Assembly: GCA_015143295.1 (NCBI GenBank)
Contig: CM026557.1
Span: forward strand, 21,051,760 to 21,115,759
Direction: 5' to 3'
Length of the DNA: 64,000 bases
Source of the DNA: Tetracentron sinense
Taxonomy: Eukaryota > Streptophyta > Magnoliopsida > Trochodendrales > Trochodendraceae
The notes beneath the pieces are model-generated. The model ran no database searches and was not told where the DNA came from. It was given only the letters and a program-made list of their open reading frames with translations. The position numbers and the translations under genes were made by a program. This document shows positions 2,040-63,100 of the stretch, piece by piece (the stretch's first letter is position 1; every line of letters starts with the position of its first letter).

Positions 2040-2178
2040 AACAAATCAAACAATTTTGGGCACTGATTCGTCAATATATACCATTAAATGGTTGGGACCA
2101 CCTATGGTCCAGGGAGCATGGCGACAAATTTAGATCGTCTGGATAGTTGTAACCATTTATTGTCTAAAAATGTCAGCT
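2040..2178 (-). repeat. Dispersed repeat at the left-arm edge, related to one in CRTISO intron 1
   Basis: Read on the minus strand, this block aligns with 48553-48700 at roughly 80% identity by eye. Shared words include TCCAGACGATCTAA, GCCATGCTCC, ATTTAATGGT and CAGTGCCCAAA. It directly abuts the broken LINE at 2177. Related blocks at a breakpoint and inside CRTISO suggest a dispersed family, not part of the arm homology itself. Confidence 0.6.
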
Positions 2179-5100
2179 GAAAACCGACCATGGTTGTCTC
2201 TAGCCTAAATCCTACTGTCCCTAATTTCGGTGCACGGGGAGATCGAAGAAACACGTTCCAAGAGTCGAGTCATATCTTCAACTTCTCAATCGTTCAAGTC
2301 TCGACGCATACTCGGACACCACACCACCCCCTTCCCCGACCCCTCACAAGACTCCCCTAATGATGTCTTCCTATCAGATGCTAACATGAACAAGTTGCCA
2401 AAGTCATCCTTCAGCTTAGAGCCCCCACACCACACATCCGACCAAAATCTGACCTCTAACTCCCTCCCAAATCTAAACTGGAAATCTAGCACCACTAGGT
2501 TGGCATTGACTATAATACCCTTCCACAAACTCTGACCATGAGAACCTCTCACCTCTCTCGGAACCCAACACGACCGCTCCCTGTATTTGGCAGTGATTAT
2601 AGCCCGCCACAAACTATCCCTCTCCTCCCAAACCTCCAAACCCATTTTCTTAACAAAGCCTTGTTAACCTGGGCAAGCGACTTGAGGTTTAAACCCCCGC
2701 TCTCCTTGGCCCTACACATGAGATTCCAGGCTACAAGATGGTATTTGAATTTGTCACCTTTCTCATTCCACATAAATTCTCTTTGGATTCTCTCGAGAGC
2801 AACCGCCACCAAACGAGGAATGGTAATAAGGGGCATAAAATAGGTAAGAAGGCTGCTCAGGGTACTTTGGATCAGTCAATTTCCCTCCTTTAGATAAAGA
2901 AGATGATTTCTAACCTGAGAGTCTTTTGGCCACCCTATCCAGCACTGGGATCCAAATTGCTTTGGCTTTAAATCTCGCACCTAAAGGCATACCTAGGTAA
3001 ACAGAAGGGAGGGACCCCACAGAGCAACCAAGGCACCGAGCAAGAAAATCTATATCTAGAACTACACCTACACTCACGATCTCTGATTTCTCCAAGTTCA
3101 CTCGCAGGCCAGACACTACTTCAAAGCAACGAAGAATGTATCTAAGATGGAGAAGATCGTCACTCTGAGCTCTACAGAAAATGAGGGTATCATCAGCAAA
3201 CTGAAAGTGTGAAATTCGTAACCGATCTACTCCAATCGGGAACTCTTCAAAAAACCTCCCCTCTGCCTTAGATAACAAACGACTCAAAGCCTCTGAGACT
3301 ATCACAAAAAGAAAGGGAGATAGCGGATCTTATTGACGAAAACCCCTGGAACTGGGGAATCCCACCAAGCTCCCGTTCAGAAGCCTCCACTTAGCCCTAA
3401 ACCCCATCCTGCCTAGGACGTACTTAGAAAGGCCCAATTTACATGATCATAGGCTTTTTCCATGTCCACCTTACAAAGAAGACCCTAAATCTTGGATTTG
3501 GTGCCAGCGTCAATGCTTTCATTAGCAATCAATATGTCATCGAGCATTTGATGCCCCCTACAAACGCTCCATGTTGAGGGGATATAATGGAGGGCATGAC
3601 TAACTTTCGACGGTCCGTCAAGACCTTGGAAAGGATTTTGTACACGCTGCTCACCAAACTAATAGGCCGAAAATCTTTTAGATCAAAAGCACCTTCCTTA
3701 TTTGGAATCAGCACAAGGAAGGTGCAATTCACTACTCTATCAAAGCGACCCGAGACATATAGCTCCCTCATCACATCCATAAAATCACTCCCCACAATCT
3801 CCCAACACGCCCTATAGAACTCTATGGAAAAGCCCTCTAGCCCAGGCGCCTTATCACCCGCTAAACCACAAATAGCTCCAAGAACCTCATCTACCTCGAA
3901 AGGGGCCTCCAAAGCCCCCTTTTGGGCAAGGGATAAGCCATCAAAGGCTAACTCATCCAATTGAGGACGCCAAGATTCCCTTTCGCAATACAAATCCCAG
4001 TAGAATGATATGACACTATCTGCAATAGCGTCCTTCGACTCCTTCCAGTTTCCCTCCACCCTCAGCTAGGAGATAAAATTTCTTTTCTTGTAAAAGTTTG
4101 TCGATCTTTGGAAGAACTTGGTGTTACGATCCCCCTCTTTGAGCCAACGAATTCTGGCCTTTTGTTTCCAACTTATCTCTTTCATTTTGAGGAGACGTAT
4201 GCCAATCGATTTGCCTCTGTATTCAAAGCTCTGGGGGGGATAGATCTTTAGATTCGGCAAAACCATCCATCTCTTCGATCTCCTGAAGTAACCTTGCTAA
4301 CCGGACCTGGACATTCCCAAACACTTTGCTATTCCAAATTTTCAACCGGCCTTTGAGAGCTTTCAGCTTCATGCCAAAGCGAGTGCTAGCCGAGCCCCAT
4401 CCACTTTGGAGATTCCACACCTCAGCCACTAAAGCCTTAAACTTCTCGTCCTCCAACCACATATTCTCAAAATGGAAGGGGCTAGGACCCTAGAGAAAGA
4501 CCCCGATTCTAAAATAATAGGCACATGATCAGAGATGGGCCTCGAGAGGGACGACTGAATAGAATTGGAGAAGTGATTCTCCCAATCAAGGCCTACTAAA
4601 AATCTATCCAACTGGCTCGCAGACATGTTAAAGCCAGATTGGGACCAGGTGAACAGGGCTCCCTTAAGCGGATAGTCAATCAAACCATGACGAAAGATGA
4701 ATTCCTTGAAAAGTCTCATCTTAGCCGAGATAGCACAACCCCTTTTCTTTTCGGATGAAAAACGAATACTGTTAAGATCACCACCTAAGCACCACGGTGC
4801 ATCCCATCGCACACTAACATCATCCAATTCAGACCAGAAATCCATCTCAGCAGATCCCCTTGAAGGCCTGTACACCCCAGAGAAAACCCATTAAAAGCCC
4901 CCCCCCCCCCCCCCCCCAAGCGACAAAGAATAGAGGATGAGAAGTTCCTACTTCTGAATCCAGAACCTCCACTTTGGACGTCCCAAAGTAATATAATCCC
5001 CCCAGATGACCCTAAGGACGGTAATTCAAGCCAACACGACTAAGGGCTCCCCCATAACTCCCTAATGTGAAACTCTTGGGTGACTACTTTGTCTTCTGAA

Positions 5101-8008: not shown

Positions 8009-9202
8009 AGGGAAAATAATCTACCTTCTCCTTCCTCCCGCGGTGGGGATCAACAACAAAGAGATAAAGGCCCCATTGCTATTCCTCTTCCTTTCTAGGA
8101 GGAAAACCTTTGAAGAACCTTGCTTCCGATCCACCCTGTAGCTTCCTTCTTGAAGTCAAACACAGTCAGCAAGGGAACAAAGAAGCCACCAGAAAATATG
8201 TTCCTCCAGTTGAAGCACAACCGAGAAACCCCTACCCCTTTCAAAGATTCTCACAGACCAACCTTCTTTTGCTTCCACTCCAACGAACTCGAAGGATTTC
8301 GATTCGATGGATATAATCTTCCTCCGCATTTCTTTATTGGCAACTTGATTCCAATCAAGTACCTAGCTATTCGATGGAAATAATCTTCCTACTTGCCATA
8401 CCTTTTCTTCTGGACCATTGATTCATCACATTTTAATGACCACCTACAAGAACGTGGTATTAAATGGATACAACTGTCTGATCGGGCAAATTTTTTTTGT
8501 TAGTATGTAAAAGATCATTTAAATATCCAAAAGAAGTGAACCCCATGTATCCAACTTGTATTTAAAGGGGCTAGAGCAGGTAAAAAAGACTTGCTCAGCC
8601 CCATAGAGGGTCATGCAAAATATGCACAGAGTTACAACACTAACGAAGCTATGGTGGGAGGTACGCGGCAGTTCAGAAAAAGCTTTAATTCAAAAAAAAA
8701 AAATATGCATTTGGGATTTCAAACGTTGTTATAAAGAGTATAACAATGCTTACACTCAGTTGGATGGTATACGATGGAGAGTTGGCCTTTAAGCTCGTTA
8801 GAAGTGGTGTAATAAGCATGCATGGGCATTTTAGCCTTTTATCATTATTTAACATGTATACTAGGGAAGGTAAGTTATTCTCTTTTGACTGAATCCATCT
8901 CTCTTGAGTTTCTCTCTATTCTCCTTATCGTGATTTGTACCATTCCCTCAATTAACTTGTTATTGTGTCATCCTGACATGGTATCAGAATGGGACCAATC
9001 CTGCTACTGATAAGATCTCGTGGTTGGCTGCTAGTGCTGTGGTGCTCTATGTGTATGAATCACGTCCTCTTTTTATCGGATCTATTAATAAATAGGACTG
9101 GTTTGTTAAGTTTGTGCTGCGATTGTGATCGCGTGGCATTGTAATGAAGAAAGAGGGCTTGCAGGCTGTTGGCTACTAGATCTGTGGGGTCAGTTGTCAA
9201 CT

Positions 9203-11484: not shown

Positions 11485-12687
11485 CCGTTTCCTTTCCTAA
11501 GAGCGGTGGTGGTCTAAACATCCCTTTCCTCCTCAAGGTGAACAGGGCTCTATTAGGGAAGTGGCTCTGGTATTTCGGTGAGGAGGAGGGAAGCTTGTGG
11601 AAGGAGATGATAGTAATCAGGTATGGGTCGATCAATGGGTGGCACCCGAAGATAAGTCAAGGTCCCATGGGAGTCGGTGTATGGAAGCCTATCCTGTGAG
11701 GTTGGGCAGAGTTCTCCTCCCATACCCACCTTGGGAAACGAGGAACAAGTTAGTTTTTGGGACAATCATTGGTGTGGTCAAGCCACCCTTAGACAGTCGT
11801 TCAACAACCACTTCCTCCTCACGCCCAACAAAAAGGCTTCTGTAGCAGATTATTTAGATTGGCAAAGAGGGGCTCTGGTTTGGGCACTCAAACTTAGATG
11901 TAATCTATGCAACTGGGAGGTTCCGGATCTTTTAGGATTGTTAGCCCGAGTATCGCAGGTTATCCCGTCTTCCTCCATTACGGATAGTCGTGTTTGGTCC
12001 TCAGACAACAAGGGGAGCTTCTCAGTGGGATCACATTCCAAGCCTTTGCTACCTTTTCCTCATCAGGCTGTGTGGTTCCCGGTGATTCCATCAAAGGTAT
12101 TTTTCTTCTCGTGGACTTCGGTCTTAGATAAAATCTTGACTAGCAATCACCTTATGCATAAAGATTGGTATCTAACTAACAAATGTTATATGTGCCTCCT
12201 AGCAAAGGAAACAGTCATCACTTATTGCTTCATTGTCCGGTGGTGCGAGAAGTTTGGTCCTATTTCCTTGTGCACCTAGACATCCCTTGGATCTTTCCCG
12301 GCTCCTTTCAGAGCTTCTTATCTTGTTGGTTCTCAGTGGTGTTCCCGTCGCCAACAGGGACAATGTAGCCTCCCCTTCCAAGGGCAATTGCTTGGTCCCC
12401 ATGAAAGCAAAGGAACAAATGAGTATTCGGAGACTCTTTCTCGACGATTACCCGTATCCAGGCTAGGGTGCGCCACCTAGTCTCCGCCTGGGGCTTAGTT
12501 GGGTGAGCTGAGGGGGATCCGTGGGGGAACACCTTTGCACTTTGATTGCCTATTGCTATTGTATCGATCTGCCTTTTATGGATTTTTGTTTGCTTTTCCC
12601 CCTAGTTTACTATTGGTAAACCTTGTGATGTAGGCTATTTCCCTTCCTTCTATATATATTACTACTATTTCCCGATAATAAAAAAAC
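11485..12687 (+). mobile_element. 5'-truncated LINE fragment C
   Basis: The last third of an L1-type ORF2 in the plus direction. [17 protein letters not shown] matches the [15 protein letters not shown] region of the full LINE. Further on come a WVFWDNHW-type stretch and the zinc-knuckle-like CYMCLLAKE...HHLLLHCPVV motif near 12180-12240. It ends at CGATAATAAAAAAA around 12687. The frame is broken in several places. In the right arm its distal half is deleted. Confidence 0.8.
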
Positions 12688-15600
12688 AACCAAAGAGGAG
12701 CTCCCTTGTGATGTCACAGCCATACAACTGTCTCTAGCCGTATGGCCTAGGCCATTTTTTGGATTCTTTAAAGGTAAATTTCTTAGAGATCTTGATTTTA
12801 GAGGATTTTTGAATCCTATATCGTGTAATTTGATTCAATATTGAGGAAGTTACAATGATTTCAAGGAAAAATAACTATCTCAATTCAGAATTTTTTTCGC
12901 TCAGATGGGGCAAGTTTAATGTTGTTTGTTGGTCATGGGTGAACCAGTTTTTTTTAAGGATCATTTTAGAACTAAGTTTACCCCATTTGGAAGAGATTTG
13001 AAATTTTAAATGCTCTATGATGATTTTTTCAACCCTTTTCCAACGTTTTGACTGTTAAATGGGGTTTTATGCTTGATTTTCTTATAAAAGCATCTTAGAT
13101 GGTTGTTTTTGGTAATCTTAATACATATGGATAAGTTTTTGATGAGGTATTGATTGCTTGGAGGTGTGACTTCAGTTTTCCCTTAAGATGCTCCTATGGA
13201 TGCTCAGACTCTTACTCCCCCAGCTCTTTCTGACTCTGTTGCCCACTCTATCACCAATATTAAATTAAATGGTAATAATTTTCTTGTGTGGCGAAGCACT
13301 GTTGAGCTTTATATTGGGGGTCATTCTAAGATGGGGTATCTTGATGGTAAGACCCCATAGCTAGAGACATGTATTTCCGGGATTGCTAAGTGGAATGCCG
13401 AGAATTGCATTATTTTGGGCTGGTTTTTTAATTCTATAGAGCCTCAGATTGTCGGGAATTACATTATAAGGATTGTCATGAGCTTTTGGACAGTCTAATT
13501 CAGACTCATGCCTTAGTGGAGAATGATGCTCGGATTTATCAACTCACTCATGAGATTGCTCATTTTCAGCAAGGGGATATGCCTATCTCTGATTATTTTG
13601 GGGCTCTGCAGCATCGTTTGGAAGAATTGAACCATTATGAGCCGCTTTCTGAATTGTCAGCTGCTTCTGCTAAGGTAATGATGAAGCAAATTGGGTGTCA
13701 TCGCATTTATGATTTCTTGGGTGGTCTTCATGTCGAATTTGAGCAGTTGCACATTCAGCTCCATGCCACGTCTCCTCTGCCCTCTCTTCGATTTGTGTAC
13801 TTCACTGTGTTCAGTGAGGAATGTCGTCGGGTTGTTATATCTTCGAGCTCCCCTCCTATGCTCCATCCATATCGTACAGCCTTTGCTACTGCTTTTTGTT
13901 CTCCTCCAGGACGTGGTAAGGGTACTGATAGGGGTCGTCGAGGTCGTGGTCGAGCTCCCCTCCTATGCTTCATCCAGATCATACTGCTTTGCTACTAATT
14001 TCTGCCCTCCTTCAGGACGTGGTAGGGGGAAAGATAGGGGTCGTCATGGTCGTGGTCGAGCTCCCCTCCTATGCTCCATCTAGATCGTACTACTTTGCTA
14101 CTAATTTCCGTCCTCCTCCAGGACGTGGTAGAGGGAATGATAGGGGTCGTCATGGTCGTGGTAGATTTACTACTCATTGAGCTCACTATGGTATAGTGGG
14201 ACATGATTGTGATCATTATTATCATTTGCATGGCTATCCTGAGGGTTACCAGTCTCGTCCTGCTACTCATTTTTCTACGACTCCAGCTATTGATCCTCCA
14301 CCAGTAGCCTCAGTTGCTGCGAGTGATCCTTTGGAGTCCTTGAGAGCTCAGGTTGCTAAGATGATCCATGTTGAGTTCCATATGCAGAGTGATTTTGATA
14401 CTTCTGATTCATCTTCACTAGCTACCTCAGGTATCCATGCTCCCTCAGCCTATGCTAGCACTACATCGTCTTCTTCCCCTAGCTAGGTTATTGATTCCGG
14501 AGCTACTGATCATATGACTGGTGAGTCACAGGGTGGTTATTCTATTTATTCACCTCCATCTCGTACTGCCAAGGTTCGTTTGACCGATGGTTTCATTACT
14601 CCTGTTTAGGAGTAGGACACATTCTTGTATCTCAGTCTCTCTCTTTATCTCATGTTTTACATGTTCCTCATTTATCTTCTAACCTTCTTTCAGTTAGTAG
14701 TCTTACTACCAAACTCTAGTGTTGTGCTATGTTTTATCCTTCTCATTGTCTTTTTCCTACGAGAAAGATTGTTGGTAGAGGCGTGAAAAGAGGAGGACTG
14801 TACTACCTTGACACAAATTATGCTCCTGATTGTGTCCCATTGTGATACTTGTGAGCTTACTAAACATGTTTGCACTATTTATCCTTCTCGCATGCATAGA
14901 TGCCGGTTTACTTTTGAGCTTGTTTATTCTGATGTTTAGGGTCCATCTCCGGTTACCTCTCTCTAGTGATGGTTTTCGTTATTATGTTACTTTTATCGAT
15001 GACTACACTAGGGCTACTTGGATTTACCTTATTAAGTCAAAGGATGAAGTGTTCACTAAATTCCAAGAATTTCATGCTACGGTTGTTACCCAATTTGGTG
15101 GTCTTATTAAGGTACCAAACCAAGACAGCACAATCCTGCATTTTGAACCTACAAGAACGCCAATCGAAGCACACCAATCGAACCAACAAGGCTTCTCTCT
15201 TACAGGTTCGACTAGTCAATTCCGATCTTTTCCCTTTTTTTACTCACGACATTCCACTCTTTTCTTCTTCTTTTTTCCACCCAACTGTTTACTCGTCAAA
15301 TTTCTTTCAGTCAAAGAAGAGGGCTCTTAGATATTGATCGAAGTTCCAATGATATATCTGAATTATCCCCTTGAAGCCAGAAAAATTAGTAGATGATTGT
15401 GTTTTCCATCACGATGTAAGCTCAGAATTTCTATTTGTTTATTTCCTTGGTTTTTGTTTGGACCAATGCATCAAGTTTTCTTACCTAGTAGAAATCAGAT
15501 AGTTTCCTGTGGTTAAGAGCAAGCAGAAACGTGGGTACTAGAGTGAAAGCAAGGATAGTGAAAAATGAGTTGAGAGTTTGGGGTATGGAAGAAATGAACT

Positions 15601-15708
15601 ATGCACCTGCCCTCCAAGGAACTATTGCTAATCCACTTCAGCACTAGGAATGAGCAAGCCTAGAAAAAAAATGTTTAATATGGCAAGTGTTTAATGCCAG
15701 AACTAGTA
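12688..15708 (+). mobile_element. Copia-derived element X, copy X1 (fossil)
   Basis: Ty1/copia-lineage fossil. Parts in order: about 500 bp leader; gag from about 13190; a glycine/arginine-rich repeat segment (about 117-bp unit, 13847-14165); a CCHC knuckle near 14200; a protease-like DSGATDHMTGES stretch near 14497; a short pre-integrase segment; and an integrase core with YYVTFIDDYTRATWIY near 14980. No reverse transcriptase or RNase H follows. Instead there is a tail of about 600 bp shared with X2. No LTR pair was recognised. Broken in several places. Confidence 0.78.
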
Positions 15709-15853
15709 AAACTGCATTCACATATTTATTTTTTGTTTTCCAATTTATGCTCTTGTTTCTTGATAATTCTACTTTTGTTTGCCTTCAATGCTAAAAAAAA
15801 CTCCATAAAAAAGCAATCTTAGTTGGAGTATTTGGATATCAGCTCTTTAAAGT

Positions 15854-16497
15854 TTCAAGTATGCTTCTCAAAGCGCCGTAAGGGTCTATTCAAAAAGGCG
15901 AAGGATCTATGCACTCTCTCAGGCGCTCAGATCGCAATGGTAGTATTCTCTCCTGCTGGAAAGCCTTTCACGTTCGGCGAATCGTCAGTTGAAACCCTAA
16001 TTAATCACTTCGGTGGAGTTGTTGGAAATGATAGAACAGAGGGGTCCAAGAAAGATACCAGCTTCCTTTTAGAGCAATCCGTATGTGATAATGGCGAAAC
16101 CCTACTTGATCATTTCGGTGGAGCTGTTGGAAATGATACAACAGATGAGTCCAAGAAAGATACCAGCTTTATTTTAGAGAATCAGCTGCAGCAATCTGAG
16201 AGAAAGTTCCGGTGGAACAAGTATATGGAGAGCATCGATGATATTGAACAGCTGCAGATAATCATCTCAGCTTTGGTGAAACTCAAGGAAAATGTGCTGA
16301 GGCAGCTTTCGATGGGCTCTGTTATGGATGGGGCAAGCACGAGGAGCCAAAGCGGCTCTGTTATGGATGGGGCAAGCACGAGCAGCCAAAGGTCCGTGAT
16401 GGAAGAGACAATAGAATCCACAATTCATTATCCGGAAGAAGAATGTGATCCTGATTTCATGTTTGATGTAGATGAACTCCTTAGCCTACTCAGTTGA
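15854..16497 (+). pseudogene. Type I MADS-box gene copy, 5'-truncated
   Basis: Near-identical to codons 18-230 of the intact MADS gene at 45517-46209. Homology begins at TTCAAGTATGCTTC, so the first 17 residues, including the start codon and the basic N-terminal arm of the MADS domain, are lost. The sequence in front (15709-15853, 145 bp) is unrelated to the MADS 5' region and to X1. An open frame extends upstream to 15823 but begins with TTG; the first in-frame ATG is at 'IAMVVF', well inside the domain. Differences from the intact copy include Asn for Asp in ETLINHF and Thr for Arg in MEETIES. The 3' UTR with AATAAA at 16715 is retained. Likely non-functional unless an upstream start is spliced in. 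Confidence 0.85.
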
Positions 16498-20543: not shown

Positions 20544-20708
20544 TACAAATATAATGGTGATAGTGGAGTAATCATTTATATAATGATGATTGTGGAGTAA
20601 TCATTTGTTTATATGTAGATGATTTATTGATTTTTGGAACAAATAAAAAAAAAAAAATCATAAATGGGGCAAAAGAATTCGTATGACTATTTCTCGATAA
20701 TAAAAAAA
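19690..20708 (+). mobile_element. Copia pol fossil (integrase end to reverse transcriptase)
   Basis: Degenerate Ty1/copia pol of a different family from X. Recognisable are the integrase C-terminal stretch (RFNYPKIIKLGP, near 19750), the start of reverse transcriptase (CKWIFKKKLKADEF near 20230), YFDKYSPVLRITLIRV near 20335, and the catalytic-box region LYVDDLLIFG near 20610. AT-rich and heavily decayed, so clearly older than X. It is cut off by X2 on its downstream side. Both arms carry it. Confidence 0.75.
20516..20543. repeat. TA microsatellite inside the copia pol fossil
   Basis: About 14 TA units. The mirrored site in the right arm (about 41446-41460) has fewer units, so this length differs between the arms. 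Confidence 0.85.
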
Positions 20709-23700: not shown

Positions 23701-23875
23701 GTGGGTACTAGCGTGCAAGCCCGGCTGGCGACACTGAGTGAGCGGTTGGGGTATGGAGACCTCCCTATGCACCGTACCCTCTAAGGAACTATTGCTAATC
23801 CATTTAAGCACTAGGAAGTAGCAAGCATAGAAAAAAAATGTTTAATATGGCAAGTGTTTAATGCCAGAACTAGTA
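20709..23875 (+). mobile_element. Copia-derived element X, copy X2 (fossil)
   Basis: Same parts and order as X1: leader, gag (from about 21230), a glycine/arginine repeat segment (about 21863-22160), a CCHC knuckle (CGIVGHDRDHC near 22200), a pre-integrase domain (DLTTRKIAGRGVKRGGLYYL near 22770), an integrase core (near 23150), then the shared non-copia tail ending CCAGAACTAGTA. It keeps more of the pre-integrase segment than X1. It lacks reverse transcriptase and RNase H. Broken, but less so than X1. It shares about 25 bp upstream of the leader (CTATTTC.CGATAATAAAA) with X1. Confidence 0.8.
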
Positions 23876-23887
23876 CCTGAACTCTGA

Positions 23888-24170
23888 ATGGGACAGCAAT
23901 GCGCAGCCCAAGAGACGAAGGGGGAAAGGGGAGGGAGGCAAAAGAAGGAAAAAGAAAGAACGAGCAGGATACGGAGAGAGAGGAAAGGGGGGGCGGGAAG
24001 CATAAGCGCCCGGCGATATCCGCCCTGCAGCGGAAGAGTTTGGCTGAAGGAAAACACAGGGGATGGCAAGGCCGCAATGGCAAGGGCCAAAGGCAGGGGG
24101 CAGGACAGGGGGGGCGGACGCAGCGAGAATCCGCGCTCTAGAGAGGGGGATCGGGCATAATTTTCTAACC
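23888..24170 (+). repeat. GC-rich, strongly purine-biased block
   Basis: The plus strand is dominated by A and G (GGGGAAAGGGGAGGGAGG, AGAGAGAGGAAAGG and similar), with GC content well above its surroundings. Several overlapping frames of 80-135 codons open on both strands simply because of this bias, and none has a recognisable domain. It starts within 15 bp of the end of X2 and has no mirrored copy. Confidence 0.6.
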
Positions 24171-24670
24171 AATGAGCAATCAAAGGTTCACTGGGTTGTT
24201 CGTGTCCTAGAAATGAATAGACTTGGCAAATAAATATAAATAAGAACAAACTTTTTGAATTTTATGTTCGACACCCTGCCCCTCCTGATTCTCTGGATAA
24301 GTCCATGTTTCTATTACTTAGCCATGTTAAATAACTGACCCTGCCCCTCTATTTACGATGGTGAGCTGTGCCCCTCGAGATCGTAATTGTGTTGACGTGG
24401 GGAGAGTTCAATACCATCCCCCGGATGAATATGTGTTCCTTTAACCCTATTACCATGTTTAAGATTTCTCCACCCTTAGGGTTCACATCTTAACAATTGC
24501 TAGAGAAAAATAAATAAAACACCCTACCCCCCTCGCCCTTTACAAGTTTTGTAGGAATCATACAAAACCATGACAATCGTAAAGCAAATGTTATCGGCCA
24601 CATGTGGCCTAATTGACCTGAACCCCATGTGCCTTAGGCCTCATGAAGTCCATGCGAAAAACCTTTTATT
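24171..24670. other. Intergenic stretch, nothing recognised
   Basis: Pyrimidine-rich words such as CCTGCCCCTC recur near 24275 and 24340. No coding frame, structural RNA or element end was seen. Confidence 0.4.
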
Positions 24671-26718: not shown

Positions 26719-26720
26719 AG

Positions 26721-44995: not shown

Positions 44996-45516
44996 TAAAC
45001 ATTATGCTCATCTGATCTATTTATCAGATGGCTATGACCATTGGTTCAGCTCAGTGATGCTTTAGTATGTCATACCTCTTCTAAGCATGTTAATAAGATG
45101 TTCACAGTTATAGAGCCAAGTGAAATGCCAAAGGTATTGATTGACTCGACATTCTAGTGAAGCCTCAACTTTTTGTTAACTTTGGATTTATTTTTGTCCT
45201 TCTCCGATTACGGGTTATTAAATTTTACGCCTTGATCAACCCAGAGGTAACACAGAGAAGCATCCATGCAAATAACAGAAAATAATGGAAAGAGTAACAA
45301 ATTGAACTTTATTAAAAATAGAATGAAAACAACCATCCCCAAACTTGTATTACAATGCCGCAATTACAGAAAAATCAATTTCAGACCCAATAAAGAACAT
45401 ATAGAAACCCTAAAAATCTTAAATCTCAAGACTTCCAGGTGAAAATTCATCTACACCCATAAAAAAAATATAATATGAAGAAAAAAGTATACCCAGAAAA
45501 GGGGCCAAAAAATGGA

Positions 45517-46209
45517 TCAACTGAGTAGGCTAAGGAGTTCATCTACATCAAACATGAAATCAGGATCACATTCTTCTTCCGGATAATGAATTGTGGATTC
45601 TATTCTCTCTTCCATCACGGACCTTTGGCTGCTTGTGCTTGCCCCATCCATAACAGAGCCGCTTTGGCTCCTCGTGCTTGCCCCATCCATAACAGAGCCC
45701 ATCGAAAGCTGCCTCAGCACATTTTCCTTGAGTTTCACCAAAGCTGAGATGATTATCTGCAGCTGTTCAATATCATCGATGCTCTCCATATACTTGTTCC
45801 ACCGGAACTTTCTCTCAGATTGCTGCAGCTGATTCTCTAAAATAAAGCTGGTATCTTTCTTGGACTCATCTGTTGTATCATTTCCAACAGCTCCACCGAA
45901 ATGATCAAGTAGGGTTTCGCCATTATCACATACGGATTGCTCTAAAAGGAAGCTGGTATCTTTCTTGGACCCCTCTGTTCTATCATTTCCAACAACTCCA
46001 CCGAAGTGATCAATTAGGGTTTCAACTGACGATTCGCCGAACGTGAAAGGCTTTCCAGCAGGAGAGAATACTACCATTGCGATCTGAGCGCCTGAGAGAG
46101 TGCATAGATCCTTCGCCTTCTTAAATAGACCTTTACGGCGCTTTGAGAAGCATACTTGAAGCTTATGCTTGTCCTCAATCTTCTCCATCTTAAGTTTCTG
46201 ACGCCCCAT
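45517..46209 (-). CDS. Type I (M-alpha, AGL62/AGL29-like) MADS-box transcription factor, intact
   Basis: Single-exon frame of 230 residues. Residues 1-58 are the MADS domain: MGRQKLKMEKIEDK, then [16 protein letters not shown] and [23 protein letters not shown] and the lack of introns or a K domain point to type I M-alpha, whose members act in the nucleus, often in female gametophyte or endosperm. Two internal duplications are visible: residues 63-90 and 98-125 share ETLxDHFGGxVGND and SKKDTSF (105-bp period), and [12 protein letters not shown] occurs twice (39-bp period). A coiled-coil-like stretch follows the first, and the C-terminus is acidic ([15 protein letters not shown]). The start lies in good context about 190 bp below a TATA-like box. 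The AATAAA signal is at 45308-45313 on the opposite strand. It faces away from CRTISO. Confidence 0.88.
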   Translation of the reverse strand: MGRQKLKMEKIEDKHKLQVCFSKRRKGLFKKAKDLCTLSGAQIAMVVFSPAGKPFTFGESSVETLIDHFGGVVGNDRTEGSKKDTSFLLEQSVCDNGETLLDHFGGAVGNDTTDESKKDTSFILENQLQQSERKFRWNKYMESIDDIEQLQIIISALVKLKENVLRQLSMGSVMDGASTRSQSGSVMDGASTSSQRSVMEERIESTIHYPEEECDPDFMFDVDELLSLLS

Positions 46210-46395
46210 TGCAAATTCACAGAGAACGAAGATAAAGAAGAACTAGGATTGAGTTTTTGCAGAGAACGAACAACAATAGAGAATCAGAAAAGTTAGGGTT
46301 ACAGAGAAGGAAAAGAAAGCATTAGGGTTTTTTTGCAGAGAACGAACGGGAAGGAAGAATTAGGGACGTTGGGATTTTTCGGTCCTTGTTTTGGC

Positions 46396-46405
46396 TATAA
46401 ATAGA
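46396..46405 (-). promoter_or_regulatory. TATA-like box of the MADS-box gene
   Basis: The palindromic CTATAAATAG, read as CTATTTATAG on the minus strand, lies about 190 bp before the ATG. The leader between them twice contains TTTTTGCAGAGAACGAAC. The left-arm truncated copy lacks this promoter. Confidence 0.5.
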
Positions 46406-46409
46406 CTAA

Positions 46410-47672
46410 AGCGCTGCAAGGCGGGATTTTTAGAGTTTTGAAAACCAATATGTACCTGACGGTCGAACCGTCCGGACCGTGAACCCGGAGTCGATCGGCT
46501 AGTTTTTTTTTTTTTTTTTGGTCAAGGTAACAATACCACAAGGCAATGCTACAGGTAATAGAAGGGAAAATACACACACACCACTCACACACACACAGCC
46601 ACATACAACCACAAAGCCCATGAAGAACGGAATGTGTAGAGCATCTGTTTGTCACTTTGTCCAACGTCATTTTGACTTTTAGGTGTGTACGGATAGATTT
46701 CTCTTAAAAGGAAAAATATTTCCATATATCGTACCTATAATATAAGAAGTTTTAAAAAAAATTGATGGGCCATGTCCCTTCCCGCCCCTGCCCATCCTTA
46801 AGGGTTTACCTACCTATCCTTGGTTTTTCGAAAAAATTATTTTAATATTTTTTTTAACCATGGTTAATTTTTTAAAAATCAAGAATAGGTGCATGAACTC
46901 TAGGGGTGGAAGAATCTTTAACCAAAGGGGTGTCAAATATTTTATCTCAAATTCCTTAGCCCAGTCAATTATGACAACTAATTCTAAAAGCTTATGCTTG
47001 TTCATGAACTGTAGGGCTAAGGAATTCTTCAAATTCCTTAGCCCAATCAATTATGTTAAGAGGGAGTTTGGTACCTCTAAACTAAATAGGTAGAGCTTAT
47101 TTGAAAATGGAACTTATTTGTACTTTAAATTATTAAGTTAAAGTATAATTTGATGTCTTAATCTTTTAAAAGTAGAAGTTTTATCTCTAAAGAAAAAAGT
47201 CGCTTATGTCTCCTAGTTACTTTAGAGGTAAAATCTCTACTTTAAAACAGATTTAGACATCCAATTAAACTTTAACTTAACAATCTAAAATCCAAAAATA
47301 GGTGGGTGAACCTTACCCACGGTTAAGGGGTGTCAAAGAAGACACGTGGTGACCTCTAGGGGTGATAACCGGACGGAGATGATTTGACTCCTTCTCTATT
47401 CCATGGGAATAAAAACTTTCCTCACTTCCATGGGTGGGTTACCATCTGGGAAGCGGGACCCACTGTTCCATTACGGTCCTACGACTACCCAGTACACCTG
47501 AACCGAACGATCAAAGCCCTTTCATCTAATAGAAGAAAATGGACAAGCTTCCCATTCAAAACCTGTTTCTCTTATTTCTTGTCTCATCTCGTCGAGGAAT
47601 CATGGATCGGAATCATCATCCACTCATAATAAATAATATTCAAACATCTCCAATTTCCCCAGTATAACGAAA
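46410..47672. other. Divergent intergenic region between MADS gene and CRTISO
   Basis: It holds a T tract (46505-46520), a CA-rich stretch (46570-46600) and a 27-bp near-perfect direct repeat AAATTCCTTAGCCCA at about 46947 and 47030. The foldback described separately is also here. It has no left-arm counterpart. The CRTISO promoter must lie here; no clear TATA box was identified. Confidence 0.55.
47098..47310. mobile_element. Foldback MITE-like palindrome in the CRTISO upstream region
   Basis: TTAAGTTAAAGTATAATTTG near 47144 pairs with the reverse of CAATTAAACTTTAACTTAA near 47262. Inside these, AAAGTAGAAGTTTTATCTCT pairs with AGAGGTAAAATCTCTACTTT across a centre near 47200. Arms are about 85-90 bp. 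Target duplication not resolved. Confidence 0.6.
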
Positions 47673-48143
47673 ATGCTCCTCCTCTCCCACTCTTCTTCCA
47701 TGGCAGAATTAGGGTTTCGCTCTCCATCTCTGGAACACAGCTCTCCACCATTTACTCACTCTAAAACCCTACAACTGAGGAGTTTCATTCATAGAAATCG
47801 GTCTGTAGATTTCAACGGTTGCCAGCTTAGGAACGTCAATTTAGGGTTTTGTGAGTGGACCAGGAGGAATCGGAACTTCGTTGTGAAGTCGAAATCGGTG
47901 TTGAGTGTAGATAAAACGGTGGAGAGAGATGGGAGTGGAGGGGTAGGTGAGGAGAACTACGATGCAATTGTTATCGGATCGGGAATTGGTGGATTGGTTG
48001 CAGGGACGCAGTTGGCGGTGAAGGGAGCTAGGGTTTTGGTGCTGGAGAAGTATGTGATTCCTGGTGGGAGCTCCGGGTATTACCAGAGGGAGGGGTTTAC
48101 TTTTGATGTTGGATCTTCAGTTATGTTCGGATTCAGTGATAAG
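47673..48143 (+). CDS. CRTISO: CRTISO exon 1
   Basis: 157 codons, from [13 protein letters not shown] to MFGFSDK. It encodes the transit peptide and the dinucleotide-binding fold. The donor GTCAGC follows AAG at 48143. Confidence 0.93.
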
Positions 48144-51100
48144 GTCAGCTTCAAACTTTTTCTAACTATCCTCTCATTTGATTTGCTAGGAATTACAAAA
48201 TACTAGGACTGGAATGAATTACATCACAAATCACAGTTTTCGAAAGAAATCAATAACAGTATAAAGAGACGATACTAAACATGGAAAACTAAGGTATAAC
48301 CATTGGCCAAATTGATTATATTATACAAGAAATTGATATCAAGCTAAGCACAAGAAAATTATATCACCCCATTGCAGTAAATTATGCATTAATCTTATAT
48401 GAATGACAGGGGTTCTCCACCTTATTGATGCAAACTGTTCAATCAGTTAGGCCACCCCCTTGTGCGGTGCAGAGTCCCGAAATCAGACTGACCAGAGGAT
48501 CCTAATGATATAATCTAGAGGTTACACTTGGATACCTAAAACAAATGTTATTGGTCAGTTGACATTATTGGACAATGGAGGATTACAACTGTCCAGACGA
48601 TCTAATTTTTTTTGTGGCCATGCTCCATAGGAGGTCCCATCTATTTAATGGTTACATGTCAACAAGTCAGTGCCCAAATGTATGATTTGTTGACCTCAGG
48701 TCATCACATTCATTTCCTTGTGTTACATATGCATCGAATTCGAATGCCATGAAAAAAAATCACTTTTAGTAAGTTACCTGCAACTCCATTTTCATTGTCA
48801 TTTGATAAATAAGAAAAACACTGTAGTTCCATTAAAAATTTCCTACCTGCGAAATTCTTTTGTTTCTGTAGTGATGGACCTCAGGTCCTCCATTAATTTC
48901 TGAGTGTTCTGTTGTATATGCATCCAACTGATAGCCCATGGAAAAAACCAACTTTCAGTAAGTAACATGCAATGCTGTTTCATCATCATTCAATAAATAA
49001 GTCTCAACTCAGGTTTTTTTTTTCTTCTAATGAACCATATAATTTATGCGTTTTATTTTGTCAAAACTGTATTTTTGTTGATGATGTTTGATTGGAGTAA
49101 TAAGAATAATATTGGTATCTTTAGAAAATCTATAATCAGAGTGTTAGGGAAGGTATAGGACATGCTTTGCTAATGGCTAACAGAATTATATGGTTTGTTT
49201 CCTAAATAAAAGTTTATGAATTGTGTCTTAACTTATAGGACTTTGTAAATTCCTTTAGAAGCAAATAGGATTTGGATTAAGTACAGTCTACTAATGCAAG
49301 ATAAAATAAACATAAAGAAGCATTGCAAACACGCCCTAGTCTGACGTGTAAACCAAGCCCTTTAGTTATGCTAGTTGCTTATATCTGGTGGTAATCCCAA
49401 TGACCACATGACAGTCATGATATTCTTTGTTTAAAACCAATCATATCTATAATTTGACTCTTTGACATTGTTAAGCTGTTAGTCTTGTTAAGATCTTTAT
49501 TATCAAAGTGTGCTTCAGATCATTAACTAGTCATTCGTTGGTTTTATTATGATGGGCAGGGCAATCTAAATTTGATAACCCAAGCATTGGCAGCAGTTGA
49601 TTGTGAGATGCAGGTGATACCTGATCCAACCACTGTCCATTTCCATTTACCCAATAATCTTTCAATCAGAGTACACCGAGAATACAATGATTTCATCACC
49701 GAACTTACCAATAGCTTTCCTCATGAAAAAGAAGGGATCCTCAAATTCTATAGTGAGTGTTGGAAGGTCTGTCCTAATTGATTGGTCGTTACAACTTCTT
49801 ATGGGATTTTTGGCCTGTACTTGTGATCCATGACTTACATTAAGCACTTATATATGTATCACATAGATCTTCAATGCCTTGAACTCATTGGAATTGAAGT
49901 CACTTGAGGAGCCAATTTACCTTTTCGGACAGTTCTTTCAGAAGCCTATAGAATGCTTGACACTCGGTAATTGCTTCTCACTTTCTTGATTGTATTCTTC
50001 AGATTTGAACTTGTAGATAAGATCATATTCATGGTGTTTGAGTTGATGCACAATGGCGTCGAACTCTTGTTCAGTGGCACCGCTTAGGACATCAACTAAG
50101 CAATATTTGCTCTCATAGTTTTGGCTAGCGGGAGTTTTGAATGCTAAGCTGTATTTATTTTTTTATTGGAGCAGACAATTTGATTTATATTTGTATAATA
50201 ATTACAACGGCTAATGAATTTCATAAAAAAGAAAATCAAAATTATTAGTTGCTGGATACAATGAGGTTTTCATCTGTTGACAAAATCTACTCTTTTTAAA
50301 AATGGTAAATTCATTCAAATTGGAGGACCATTCAAACAATATCTAGCCAATATCGCTTCGTGTTTTTAGGTTTGATCGATTGACACCTTTAAAGATCCTT
50401 CTGTTCCATTCTTTCCAAATGTCTCAGCTGACTGCAAAAGGATGCATTTTCAGAGAATTTTATCCCTCTTCTCAAAGGGGCCTCTTGGCCAACCAAAAAG
50501 AACCCCTCTTTTCTCTCCGAAGAGATCATGACATCCCGAAGAGAGAAAGAATTCTACAACACCCATGCAAACGAATACTAAATAAGTAGACAATTTCAGG
50601 TTTCCTCATTGATGTACATGGAATATTTGTCCAGAATGGTCATATTGCAATTTATTTACTGGTTGACCATTAGGATTTTGTTGACTACGGCCCAAATGAA
50701 ATTTTGATCCTAGTAGGGAACAAAGACTTCCAAATCTTCTCAAACGGCATGCTCCTATAAATATCATCCAAAAGGGACCCTATAGAAAGAGCTAACAGAA
50801 AATTCTCCTCCGTTTTTTTTTCAAAGTCTGATGATACTCCCTATTTGCATGATTTTTAACCTTGTCCAAATTTATTAGATCAATACATTCTTTTATCTCC
50901 CCGTTTCTTAAGGTTTCTACAAAATACTGGGCACTAGATTGCCTCACCACCTCTTCTTTCGAAGAATGACTCATCAAGAGATTCATATGTGGAACTAGCC
51001 AGTAGAGGGCAGGCATATCTCACAAAGTCTGTTGGGCCCACACTAATCGTCCTCCAATAATCTGATTCTACCTCCATTTCTCACCACAAAGTATGGCAAA

Positions 51101-54100
51101 CAGAGTCTTCATGACAATTATTGCTCCTTGCCAAACACTGGCCCCATATGTTGAAGTTACTTTGTCAGGTCACAATTTTGTTCATGATGCCAAATTTGAT
51201 CCCTACCACCTTCCTCCAAACTCCAAAGAGTTGGGTCTTCCTCCAAACTCCAAAGAGTTTGATCCCTACCACCTTCCTTATGATCCCCGATTATGTTATC
51301 ATGAATTTTAATACTATTGGAATACTATCCTACTGCCTGATTACTATCCAGTGGATAGTGAAATGCTTTTTCGGTATTATAAAAAAAAAAATCAAAGCCC
51401 CACAGCCCCTCCCTATAATTTTGTTGCCACCTAATCTCCGATTTCTTTCAGAGCTTTTGTTGGTCAAGAAGCACCTAATCACGGGGTTCTAGCCAATAAT
51501 GGATGAAGAGTCACAACACCACCTGAAAAACCATAGCTACGCCAAATGTCTGTTAGAACCTAGTAATGGGTTATGGGCCTAATAGCTATAATAACTCAAC
51601 CACTCTAAGCCGCCTTCTTGTCTTTCAATGGCCCTCGGGGAATCTTATTAAAACTTTGGCATCAAACTCGACATGAAGACCACCCAAGAAATCATAAATG
51701 CGATGACACCCAATTTGCTTCGTCATTACCTTGGCAGAAGCAGCAAACAATTCAGAAAGCGGCTCATAATGGTTCAATTCTTCCAAACGATGCTGCAGAG
51801 CCCCAAAATAATCAGAGATAGGCATATCCCCTTGCTGAAAATGAGCAATCTCATGAGTGAGTTGATAAATCCGAGCATCATTCTCCACTAAGGCATGAGT
51901 CTGAATTAGACTGTCCAAAAGCTCATGACAATCCTTATAATGTAATTCCCGACAATCTGAGGCTCTATAGAATTAAAAAACCAGCCCAAAATAATGCAAT
52001 TCTCGGCATTCCACTTAGCAATCCCGCAAATACATGTCTCTGGCTATGGGGTCTTACCATCAAGATACCCCATCTTAGAATGAGCCCCAATATAAAGCTC
52101 AACAGTGCTTCGCCACACAAGAAAATTATTACCATTTAATTTAATATTGGTGATAGAGTGGGCAACAGAGTCAGAAAGAGCTGGGGGAGTAAGAGTCTGA
52201 GCATCCATAGGAGCATCTTAAGGGAAAACTGAAGTCACACCTCCAAGCAATCAATACCTCATCAAAAACTTATCTATATGTATTAAGATTACCAAAAACA
52301 ACCATCTAAGATGCTTTTATAAGAAAATCAAGCATAAAACCCCCTTTAACAGTCAAAAAGGTAGGAAAAGGGTTGAAAAAATCATCATAGAGCATTTAAA
52401 ATTTCAAATCTCTTCCAAATGGGGTAAACTCAGTTCTAAAATGATCCTTAAAAAAAACCGGTTCACCCATGACCAACAAACAACATTAAACTTGCCCCAT
52501 CTGAGTGAAAAAAATTCTGAATTGAGATAGTTATTTTTCTGAATTTTTCTTCAAATCATTGTAACTTCCTCAATATTGAATCAAATTACACGATATAGGA
52601 TTCAAAAATCCTCTAAAATCAAGATCTCCAAGAAATTTACCTTCAAAGAATCCAAAAAATGGCCTAGGCCATACGGCTAGAGACAGTTGTATGGCTGTGA
52701 CATCACAAGGGAATCACCGGGAACCACACAGCCTGATGAGGAAAAGGTAGCAAAGGCTTGGAATGTGATCCCACTGAGAAGCTCCCCTTGTTGTCTGAGG
52801 ACCAAACATGACTATCCGTAATGGAGGAAGACGGGATAACCTGCGATACTCGGGCTAACAATCCTAAAAGATCCGGAACCTCCCAGTTACATAGATTACA
52901 TCTAAGTTTGAGTGCCCAAACCAGAGCCCCTCTTTGCTAATCTAAATAATCTGCTACAGAAGCCTTTTTGTTGGGCGTGAGGAAGAAGTGGTTGTTGAAC
53001 GACTGTCTAAGGGTGGCTTGACCACACCAATGATTGTCCCAAAAACTAACTTGTTCCTCGTTTCCCAAGGTGGGTATGGGAGGAGAACTCTGCCCAACCT
53101 CGCAAGATAGGCTTCCATACACCGACTCCCATGGGACCTTGACCTATCTTCGGGTGCCACCCATTGATCGACCCATACCTGATTACTATCATCTCCTTCC
53201 ACAAGCTTCCCTCCTCCTCACCAAAATACCAGAGCCACTTCTCTAATAGAGCCTTGTTCACCTTGAGGAGGAAAGGGATGTTTAGACCACCACCGCTCTT
53301 AGGAAAGGAAAAGGTTTTCCTATCTTAGGATCTTGTTACTTATTTAATTGACCTTCTTCTTCCTTTGATGAAACTCCGATACCAAATTGGAGAAAAGGTT
53401 TAGAGATTTAGGTTTTAGGAAAAAAAAGAGATTAGGGTAAATTGCATAGTGAGGGATAGAGAACCCTACTAGCATCTTATATTAAGAGAACATTACATAT
53501 GTACCCTTTTACAACTATACCCTCGTTATTACATATATCAACAATACTCACCATGTGAAAGCACTACAAAATTTCCACCTTTAAGAATAAAATAAGGTTG
53601 ACCATCAGTGACATGAGTATCATCAGAATAACTAGATGTCGTAAATTGATTTGCCCTAGCTAGTTTTTTTTTTGATCGATAATCGAGCATGTATATATAA
53701 AAAAAGAAGATATGCACAATAGATAAGAAGAGAAAGGGAATCACAAGATCATGAACCCACCAAAAAAAAGATGCAAAAGGACAGCCTCTGAGCGACCCCT
53801 AGATGAGGAGCCCACGACCTAAGCCAAGCCTAGCAATCAGGAAACCAAAGGACCCAAATCTCCTCCCCCATAAGAAGTGGAGCACCAATCCAGAACCATC
53901 GCCCGGATCCTGGAACAGAGGCGAGGAGGAGCACATAGGGAGTCATTGAAAACTCTCTTGTTCCTCTCCTTCCAAATGGACCACGCTATGGCGCCTAGCA
54001 AAACTGACCAAATCACCTTCCTAGAGTCATCCCCCCAATCCAAGTGCCAGTAGGATAAGAAGTTGCAAAAGGAAGAGGGAAAGACCCAATCCGTACATTT

Positions 54101-60100: not shown

Positions 60101-63100
60101 CCCTCTCGAGGCCCATCTCTGATCATGTGCCTATTATTTTAGAATCGGGGTCTTTCTCTAGGGTCCTAGCCCCTTCCATTTTGAGAATATGTGGTTGGAG
60201 GACGAGAAGTTTAAGGCTTTAGTGGCTAAGGTGTGGAATCTCCAAAGTGGATGGGGCTCGGCTAGCACTCGCTTTGGCATGAAGCTGAAAGCTCTCAAAG
60301 GCCGGTTGAAAATTTGGAATAGCAAAGTGTTTGGGAATGTCTAGGTCCGGTTAGCAAGGTTACTTCAGGAGATCGAAGAGATGGATGGTTTTGCCGAATC
60401 TAAAGATCTATCCCCCCCAGAGCTTTGAATACAGAGGCAAATCGATTGGCATACGTCTCCTCAAAATGAAAGAGATAAGTTGGAAACAAAAGGCCAGAAT
60501 TCGTTGGCTCAAAGAGGGGGATCGTAACACCAAGTTCTTCCAAAGATCGACAAACTTTTACAAGAAAAGAAATTTTATCTCCTAGCTGAGGGTAGAGGGA
60601 AACTGGAAGGAGTCGAAGGACGCTATTGCAGATAGTGTCATATCATTCTACTGGGATTTGTATTGCGAAAGGGAATCTTGGCGTCCTCAATTGGATGAGT
60701 TAGCCTTTGATGGCTTATCCATTGCCCAAAAGGGGGCTTTGTAGGCCCCTTTCGAGGTAGATGAGGTTCTTGGAGCTATTTGTGGTTTAGCGGGTGATAA
60801 GGCGCCTGGGCTAGAGGGTTCCATAGAGTTCTATAGGGCGTGTTGGGAGATTGTGGGGAGTGACTTTATGGATGTGATGAGGGAGCTATATGTCTCGGGT
60901 CGCTTTGATAGAGTAGTGAATTGCACCTTCCTTGTGCTGATTCCAAATAAGGAAGGCGCTTTTGATCTAAAAGATTTTCGGCCTTTTAGTTTGGTGAGCA
61001 GCGTGTACAAAATCCTTTCCAAGGTCTTGACGGACCGTCGAAAGGTAGTCATGCCCTCCATTATATCCCCTCAACATGGAGCGTTTGTAGGGGGCATCAA
61101 ACGCTCGATGACATATTGATTGCTAATGAAAGCATTGACGCTGGCACCAAATCCAAGATTCAGGGTCTTCTTTGTAAGGTGGACATGGAAAAAGCCTATG
61201 ATCATGTAAATTGGGCCTTTCTAAGTACGTCCTTGGCAAGATGGAGTTTGGGGCTAAGTGGAGGCTTCTAAACGGGAGCTTGGTGGGATTCTCCAATTCC
61301 AGGGGTTTTCGTCAATAAGATCTGCTATCTCCCTTTCTTTTTGTGATAGTCTCAGAGGCTTTGAGTCGTTTGTTATCTAAGGCAGAGGGGAGGTTTTTTG
61401 AAGAGTTCCCGATTGGAGTAGATCGGTTACGTATTTCACACTTTCAGTTTGCTGATGATACCCTCATTTTCTGTAGAGCTCAAAGTGACGATCTTCTCCA
61501 TCTTAGATGCATTCTTCGTTGCTTTGAAGTAGTGTCTGGCCTGCGAGTGAACTTGGAGAAATCAGAGATCGTGAGTGTAGGTGTAGTTCTAGATATAGAT
61601 CTTCTTGCTCGGTGCCTTGGTTGCTCTATGGGGTCCCTCCCTTCTGTTTACCTAGGTATGCCTTTAGGTGAGAGATTTAAAGCCAAAGCAATTTGGATCC
61701 CAGTGCTGGATAGGGTGGCCAAAAGACTCTCAGGTTAGAACATCTTCTTTATCTAAAGGAGGGAAATTGACTGATCCAAAGTACCCTGAGCAGCCTTCTT
61801 ACCTATTTTATGTCCCTTAATACCATTCCTCGTTTGGTGGCGGTTGCTCTCGAGAGAATCCAAAGAGAATTTATGTGGAATGAGAAAGGTGACAAATTCA
61901 AATACCATCTTGTAGCCTGGAATCTCATGTGTAGGGCCAAGGAGAGCGGGGCTTTAAACCTCAAGTCGCTTGCCCAGGTTAACAAGGCTTTGTTAAGAAA
62001 ATGGGTTTGGAGATTTGGGAGGAGAGGAATAGTTTGCGGCGGGCTATAATCACTGCCAAATACGGGGAGCGGTCGTGTTGGGTTCCGAGAGAGGTGAGAG
62101 GTTCTCATGGTCAGAGTTTGTGGAAGGGTATTATGGTCAATGCCAACCTAGTGGTGCTAGATTTCCAGTTTAGATTTGGGAGGGAGTCAGAGGTCAGATT
62201 TTGGTCGGATGTGTGGTGTGGGGGCTCTAAGCTGAAGGATGACTTTGGCAACTTGTTCATGTTAGCATCTGATAGGAAGGCATCATTAGGGGAGTCTTGT
62301 GAGGGGTCGGGGAAGGGGGTGGTGTGGTGTCCGAGTATGCGTCGAGACTTGAACGATTGAGAAGTTGAAGATATGACTCGACTCTTGGAACGTGTTTCTT
62401 CGATCTCCCCGTGCACCGAAATTAGGGACAGTAGGATTTAGGCTAGAGACAACCATGGTCGGTTTTCAGTAAGATCTCTGTTACAATCATTGTATCATGT
62501 GCCCTTTGGGTCGTTTCTTCATAGAATTGTGTGGAATCCTGGCATCCCTTCGAAGGTATCTGTTTTTGTATAGAATGCGGTATTGAATAAAATTCCAACA
62601 TGTGACCACTTACAAAGTAGAGGGTGGAGGATGGCCAACTGCTGTTTCTTGTGCCTTCAAGCGGAAGAATCCGTGGACCATCTCTTATTGCACTGCCCTA
62701 TTGTGTTTGGGATTTGGGGTTTCATTCTTTCCCGAGTGAGGGTTGGCTGGGTCTTTCCCTCCTCTTTTCTCAATTTCTTATCTTGTTGGAAGGAGATGAA
62801 TGTGGATGACGCTAAGGAGGCGATTTGGGCGGTGCTCTCGGGGGCTATATCATGGATGATTTGGAATGAGAGAAACCTCGGAGTTCTTGAGGATTCCTCC
62901 TCTTCAGTGGAGCGTATTTGTGCGAGGATCTGTTTGGTGGTTTTGGAGTGGAGGGGGCTTCACTTCGATGTGGAGGCTCAAAGGGAGGTGCTGGGATGAT
63001 TAGTTTGTTTTGGTTGCCTGGGGGCTTTTTGGGTTGAGTTTATGTACTTGTAAACTCTTCTTCCCCTTTTCTTTCTTTTCCTTTTTTTCCTTTGTACTGC

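Follow-up and report, generated by a model that had tools for sequence, protein, structure and literature searches.

Does the 64,000-nucleotide stretch of Tetracentron sinense DNA analysed here (the window) carry a genuine large palindrome, or does the head-to-head order of its two halves come from the assembly? A sequence-only reading had described an inverted duplication at this place and had raised three explanations: template switching, an inverted duplication event, and an assembly error joining two haplotypes head to head. When the window was aligned with itself by BLAST, 2177-23588 matched 38409-62469 in inverted orientation, confirming arms of 21-24 kb, and the edges previously given as 2177, 23590, 38410 and 62469 proved correct to within 2 bases. 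In what follows, C7 denotes the chromosome sequence carrying the window, and C628 and C1134 denote small contigs. The arms and the sequences around them are:

1-2180, plus strand: left outer flank, called X, with an inverted copy at C7:20983687-20985867 (98.8%)
2177-23588, plus strand: left arm, its outer part a truncated LINE-type element; contains repeat A (12664-15708), a 5'-truncated MADS-box reading frame from 15850 and most of repeat A' from 20686
13743-15849, plus strand: left-only segment, with 99% copies at C7:20992640-20994745 (plus) and C1134:21126-23228 (minus)
26000-38408, plus strand: clean part of the spacer, with an inverted copy from C7:21012452 to about 21024500, about 1% diverged
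38409-62469, minus strand: right arm, an inverted copy of the left arm; contains a complete MADS box (45520-46242, minus) and a stretch with a FAD/NAD(P)-binding fragment (47637-48203)
46165-51661, no strand assigned: right-only segment, of which the genome search (query 45500-49500) covered the part up to 49500
62470-63152, plus strand: continuation of the LINE beyond the right arm, with a zf-RVT frame at 62574-62996; old flank

In the self-alignment, the inverted match comprises 2177-8053/62469-56605 (98.2%), 8173-12089/56612-52710 (98.1%), 12702-13742/52712-51662 (97.3%) and 15850-23588/46164-38409 (97.6%). With gaps left out, the arms are 98.6% identical (253 mismatches over 18,490 sites, 181 transitions versus 72 transversions); two long, high-identity inverted arms are what a large palindrome would have, and their length and identity exclude a chance match. 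Divergence ranges from 0.2 to 2.6% per full 500-bp bin, and no homogenised tract, such as arm-to-arm gene conversion would leave, was seen in the bin values. The arms are broken by one non-homologous stretch without arm-to-arm match, 2.1 kb long on the left (13743-15849) and 5.5 kb on the right (46165-51661), and the left arm additionally holds 127 bp (8046-8172) and about 615 bp (12088-12701) that are absent from the right arm. Microhomologies of GGGA, GAAT and TTCAAG lie at the internal deletions. A direct repeat of about 3 kb (12664-15708 and 20686-23875, 90-91%) occupies parts of the left arm and the spacer edge, and the right arm retains parts of it. Query 45500-49500 returned 99-100% matches on C1134:2661-6315, which is without about 346 bp, and 97% matches on C628.

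The palindrome is not isolated but sits within a cluster of segmental duplications. The picture of a lone palindrome around a single-copy spacer was wrong, since spacer and arm both recur upstream in nearly identical form. An inverted copy of the spacer lies about 64 kb upstream (98.6% identical over the main part), and a third copy of pieces of the arm's inner half lies about 73 kb upstream, oriented as the left arm. Part of X (1177-2180) has an additional 98% copy at C10:176676-177681, and C628 and C1134 carry 97-100% copies of parts of the region. The genome searches scored the best candidates only, and the copies reported are those among the matches listed; the whole 14.8-kb spacer, used as a query, missed even its self match, so the match list from that query is incomplete. 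Nearby copies of high identity are what marks a segmental-duplication cluster, and the region resembles local (tandem) clusters of plants in that the same blocks recur several times within 0.3 Mb at 73-99% and in that microhomology is seen at one join (CTGA) and at internal deletions; it differs from them in that one unit, as assembled, is inverted relative to the other. We think that both arms are genuine copies of one segmental-duplication unit, which is present several times within about 0.3 Mb of C7 and on small contigs.

The question turns on how the copies are joined, for which the following features matter:

2177-2180, no strand: left outer join, new; X goes on differently in the copy at C7:20983687-20985867, and the arm's LINE is cut here
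23673-26000, no strand: noise-like seam at the left inner edge, in three parts, namely the end of the arm repeat, dense in errors (23673-23775), 240 bp with no other match among the candidates scored (23885-24124) and a spacer start likewise dense in errors (24125 to about 26000)
38408-38409, no strand: right inner join, new and blunt; the spacer end abuts the arm with 0 bp microhomology

Two of the edges, the left outer and the right inner, are clean and exact to the base, with 1.0-1.6% mismatch within 1 kb. At the former, CTGA is common to both parents, a microhomology of 4 bp. LINE copies elsewhere end at this join at all 28 loci chosen by means of a query that extends across the right edge, a selection that favours crossing there, and at all six picked regardless of edge. 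With the arm-only query, five of these six LINE loci cross the right outer edge (the sixth has a gap just beyond) and none crosses the left. At the right inner join, 16 of 18 repeat copies run colinearly into the upstream flank and 0 of 18 into the arm; upstream, the corresponding ends are 9.9 kb apart (C7:21002533-21012451), which gives this join the look of a deletion.

The left inner edge is of another kind. Against the upstream spacer copy, nine consecutive 200-bp bins (24200-25999) exceed 5% mismatch, whereas none of the 156 bins counted in the other aligned stretches, made up of the arms, X and spacer 27966-38408, does so (the counts omit bins with <100 columns); a tenth flagged bin, at 26800, has only 1 mismatch in the BLAST alignment. 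Over 24125-25900 there are 304 mismatches and 193 gap columns versus 1,390 matches, and the 240 bp at 23885-24124 matched only themselves among the best 40 of 182 candidates in the genome search. The spacer start of the window is 85% identical to the upstream copy and 84% to the C628 copy, yet these two are 97% identical to each other over a stretch including 443 bases of the spacer start. Beyond 24125, the upstream continuation is common to an older copy and C628, and the window's version of that edge therefore stands alone. Relative-rate tests, which count window-only changes against two other copies, gave 32 substitutions and 11 gap columns in 23386-23884, where the reference arm copy has 0 and 0 unique, and 75 substitutions and 51 gap columns versus 10 and 2 in the hairpin arm 24915-25563. 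These tests indicate that the errors lie in the window's own version, and the seam looks like unpolished or gap-filled sequence. Such counting can reveal a seam of this sort without reads.

From what is directly visible, that is, the copies, their divergence, the two base-exact joins and the error-dense seam, we consider it likelier, at a probability of roughly 0.6, that the head-to-head order is an assembly error than that it is a true inverted duplication. One contig would end near 23,673 within the left arm's repeat and another would start near 26,000 within the spacer; the two would have been joined in the wrong relative direction or place, and the seam between them filled with unpolished long-read sequence. 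Read in reverse, the right half runs flank-LINE-arm-spacer, in the same direction as the upstream unit, whose order is arm copy, 9.9 kb, spacer copy and X, followed by the left arm. The join of X to the arm would then be the one left by a direct tandem duplication, the end of one unit meeting the start of the next.

Passages of the Tetracentron paper describe PacBio reads averaging 8 kb, merged assemblies, two rounds of LR-Gapcloser, Pilon, and Hi-C scaffolding with manual changes of order and orientation, resulting in 24 pseudochromosomes of 65 to 33 Mb (1.17 Gb). Misjoins arise easily where nearly identical copies exceed most reads in length. Passages of PMC9516828 (Ko et al. 2022) report false duplicates linked by unsupported, wrongly gap-filled sequence, which resemble the present case in their near-identical blocks on one scaffold and the nature of the link. 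The cases in these passages are mostly allelic, whereas divergence and flanks here point to paralogous copies; the same passages are silent on inverted order, and the copies here are inverted as assembled.

Several observations count against a misjoin. Both neighbouring sequences can still be recognised in the seam, the arm repeat at one end and the spacer at the other end, and a single read may truly span it. Its errors in the window are chiefly deletions (135 versus 25 columns), unlike those of raw PacBio reads, which are chiefly insertions. Neither the window nor the preceding 43.8 kb contains Ns, and the right inner join, also part of the palindrome, is clean. The arm divergence of 1.4% was likewise counted here, as it shows that the arms did not come from one sequence folded back on itself.

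A true complex inverted duplication, in which the noisy stretch is a poorly polished but real junction, is the strongest competitor, though we regard it as unlikely. By replicative template switching, synthesis would leave X at 2180 through the 4-bp homology, copy the arm in reverse, jump to the spacer copy and then return to the old arm's inner edge. The polarity of the edges fits this path, with the left outer and right inner joins new and the right outer edge old. Transversion-only divergence is equal among the three inverted pairs, as if they had been made together, at 0.395% for the arms (73/18,501), 0.394% for spacer 27966-38408 (41/10,416) and 0.389% for X (9/2,312), which suits one real event and speaks against a misjoin; because of the seam, this comparison leaves out spacer 24125-27579. 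All-substitution divergence is less equal (1.37%, 1.02% and 1.04%, respectively); surplus transitions in the LINE part may account for this. The path requires three new joins, one of them within the error-dense seam, and the solitary version of the edge at 24125 argues against it. Microhomology at the new joins, as expected of FoSTeS/MMBIR rearrangements, amounts to 4 bp at 2177-2180 and 0 bp at 38408|38409, the third join being unreadable. A segment that the right arm lacks matches C7:20992640 at 99% in the left arm, which points to a history longer than one event.

Large inverted duplications formed by fold-back (PMC3907307) have the same layout as the region, a pair of long inverted arms separated by a spacer, and likewise new joins that show little homology or none. 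So do rearrangements of the DUP-TRP/INV-DUP type, which arise by template switching. The region differs from both in that its spacer is also present in duplicate, that the arm has a third, partial copy and that one join is not reliable sequence. A genuine recent duplication, with arms and spacer copied in one episode by three template switches, would have left two opposite-facing MADS-box copies and later been eroded by microhomology-flanked deletions; we consider this reading unlikely. Were the inversion true, the region would offer a plant example of replicative rearrangement that can be dated, and an inverted duplication outside sex chromosomes and centromeres. The preferred misjoin carries mainly a caution, that a palindrome read from one assembly can depend on 2.3 kb of faulty sequence.

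The noise-like left inner edge (about 23,673-26,000), one of four joins that the earlier reading had proposed to check, supports the suspicion of an assembly problem; its specific form, a head-to-head join between two haplotypes from a single locus, fares poorly, and we hold it to be very improbable. The copies on C628 and C1134 may be extra haplotypes or copies still in the assembly, and allelic divergence would likewise give equal divergence of the three pairs. However, the arm divergence is about six times the heterozygosity of 0.22% published for Tetracentron sinense, rather than resembling it as in false duplications of the haplotype type, and outside the two arms the flanking sequences are unrelated; allelic copies were judged unlikely on these grounds. 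The left- and right-only segments also differ (2.1 kb against 5.5 kb), and copies of arm pieces occur at three places on one chromosome sequence.

That the noise is natural, stemming from a relative of the spacer start, either old or evolving fast, that was brought in through recombination within the 1.8-kb hairpin element 24915-26716, fits the change from noisy to clean near the hairpin middle (about 25,850-26,000) but is hardly credible, given that the noise starts 1.2 kb before the hairpin, within an arm repeat where two other copies agree mutually, that the upstream and C628 spacer starts are far closer to each other than to the window, and that no closer relative was among the matches listed.

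Other readings were set aside: a staggered-break inversion because a separate copy of the spacer was found upstream, with its end at 38408; a reintegrated circle, whose closure the join of X to the arm resembles, because spacer, following block and X form one old contiguous stretch; and a single-molecule fold-back artefact because the arms also carry separate deletions besides differing in sequence.

Among 30 reading frames picked from longer lists and searched against Pfam, 24 had no match, and frame 32940-33251 had one (E 0.064) that fell short of the cut-off. The matches obtained were a MADS box in both arms, zf-RVT twice and one FAD/NAD(P)-binding fragment.

The arms at 2177-23588 and 38409-62469 are each the sum of four long inverted matches of the window to itself, a comparison that bore out both the arm coordinates and the overall description of an inverted duplication in the sequence-only reading. 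The arms differ at 253 of 18,490 sites aligned without gaps, and the highest full 500-bp bin reaches at most 2.6% divergence. Two interruptions have no match in the opposite arm (13743-15849 on the left, 46165-51661 on the right), and the right arm lacks 127 bp and about 615 bp that the left arm carries. We regard the duplicates as real and the palindrome as doubtful. Further copies of the same blocks lie around the window, as listed here.

Copies of window blocks on C7, the contig holding the window (negative coordinates follow window numbering, upstream of its start)
Left outer flank, 1-2180: copy at -68072 to -65892, inverted, 98.8%
Spacer, 24125-38408: copy at -39307 to -25316, inverted, 98.6% over 27966-38408 and 90.8% over 24125-27579
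Third arm copy, piece 1, 13743-15849: C7:20992640-20994745, 99%
Third arm copy, piece 2, inner end of the arm: C7:21001030-21002532, 98%
Older copies of the spacer and neighbouring blocks: C7:20854770-20907581, 77-95% among the matches listed
Other copies of these blocks: C7:21127820-21151554, 73-91% among the matches listed

The third arm copy is partial, known from these two searched pieces, and runs in the left arm's direction. It shares with the left arm an identical truncated MADS join, and from the right arm's MADS side the matches to both end after 665 bases. Window segment 27580-27965 (386 bp) is missing from the upstream spacer copy, with GAAT microhomology, and probably reflects a small upstream deletion rather than an insertion in the window. 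Outside C7, copies of parts at 97-100%, alongside less similar ones, occur on two small contigs, C628 and C1134, and in one stretch of C10. On C1134, the left-only segment and part of the right-only segment are both present, about 15 kb apart, which suggests that different pieces were lost from the two arms.

Repeat copies elsewhere in the genome distinguish old edges from new. LINE copies crossed the right outer edge and stopped at the left one at 28 of 28 loci (29 less the left arm itself), with a query that spanned the right edge and so was biased towards crossing there; with an arm-only query, five of six loci crossed the right outer edge and none the left, and in the sixth a gap of roughly 110 bases lies shortly beyond the right edge. 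The right outer flank is thus old and the left outer join, where CTGA is common to both sides, is new. The LINE pieces are marked by zf-RVT frames, and the matches listed for the outer LINE part, 2177-3177, include just two near-identical copies, the next best being 87%. At the other end of the spacer, 16 of 18 copies of its right-end repeat, picked with a query ending at the edge, are colinear with the sequence that follows upstream (three in one unbroken match), whereas within the arm none goes on for more than 11 bases, so the right inner join (38408/38409) is also new; since 9.9 kb separate the corresponding ends upstream, it reads as a deletion. The upstream continuation past the spacer's left end is shared by an older copy (92%) and C628 (97%), so that no other copy seen has the arrangement that the window shows at 24125.

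Along the upstream sequence, the arm pieces are followed by the spacer copy, then by other blocks and the left outer flank, and the flank/arm join leads into the left arm; this joining of unit end to unit start is what direct tandem duplication leaves. When the right half is reversed, its own outer flank comes first, followed by LINE, arm and spacer, and it runs as the upstream unit does; it is probably another copy of that unit, misplaced or misoriented across the left inner edge. A genuine inverted duplication, made by template switching, is in our view a less likely reading. It explains the equal transversion divergence of the three pairs (arms, spacer, flank: 0.395, 0.394 and 0.389%; all substitutions: 1.37, 1.02 and 1.04%), but it requires the seam at that edge to be a real join, and equal divergence would also be expected had the cluster been duplicated at a single time in direct order. 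By rough estimates from BLAST bit scores over different segments, the left arm lies about 0.7% from the third arm copy and the right arm about 1.4-1.6% from both.

The seam is the sole bad sequence found among the parts alignable to another copy. In comparison with the third arm copy, 23386-23672 shows 2 differences in about 287 sites; 23673-23775 then carries 28 substitutions and 8 gap columns found only in the window (unique to the reference: 0 substitutions, 3 gap columns), and about 23,800-23,870 is clean. The 240 bp at 23885-24124 match neither neighbour, nor anything else among the genome matches listed (best 40 of 182 candidates). From 24125 to about 26,000, mismatches and short gaps are dense, identity returning to about 99% thereafter. 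Mismatch exceeded 5% in nine consecutive 200-bp bins of the 17 in 24125-27579 and in none of 156 in the arms, 27966-38408 and the left flank; a tenth flagged bin (26800), with one mismatch in the BLAST alignment, was taken as misalignment. Within 1 kb of the left outer and right inner joins, mismatch is 1.0-1.6%. Relative-rate tests assign the seam's changes to the window, not to the other copy. The simpler interpretation is a stretch left unpolished or filled in across a gap, although the errors are mostly deletions (135 versus 25 columns), which counts against it. Natural evolution, which would have to act on precisely one edge, and there within 2.3 kb, is a most improbable source of the noise.

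The paper on the Tetracentron sinense assembly (PMC7709256) reports 1.17 Gb with 24 pseudochromosomes of between 33 and 65 Mb, PacBio reads averaging 8 kb, two merged assemblies, Hi-C scaffolding with order and orientation altered by hand, LR-Gapcloser run twice with PacBio reads, then Pilon, and heterozygosity of 0.22%; the words inverted, palindrome, segmental duplication and tandem duplication do not occur in its main text. Reads mostly shorter than the arms, with copies 98-99% alike, are a setting in which such an assembly can err.

In gene content, the complete MADS box (profile 1-48) belongs to the right arm, within an open frame of 241 aa (45520-46242, minus strand). The left arm's MADS-box frame (15823-16494, plus strand) begins at profile position 9, its first positions lost where the arm's non-homologous stretch begins and its 5' end replaced at 15850, a join with TTCAAG common to both sides. 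The arrangement itself gave no apparent sign of function in the sequence seen here.

Several further observations concern the surroundings. A 1.8-kb hairpin-like element occupies 24915-26716, its arms 73% alike in the window and 77% in the upstream copy, and the seam noise stops near its middle. At C7:20985868-20989659, possibly a second low-quality seam, the upstream flank copy is 95% identical, against 98.8% in the adjacent 2.3 kb. At C7:21035642-21041121 (window -16117 to -10638), a pair of direct repeats, each about 458 bp long, with 96.3% identity and a distance of about 5 kb, is perhaps a young LTR element. A stretch with an FAD/NAD(P)-binding fragment at 46508-48693 has copies at C7:20982338-20983829, C7:20839889-20840962 and C10:175251-176818; the first and last adjoin a copy of the left outer flank, and about 14 kb separate the second from such a copy. 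The window's own left flank, which terminates at 2180, resembles this stretch in no more than its final 143 bp.
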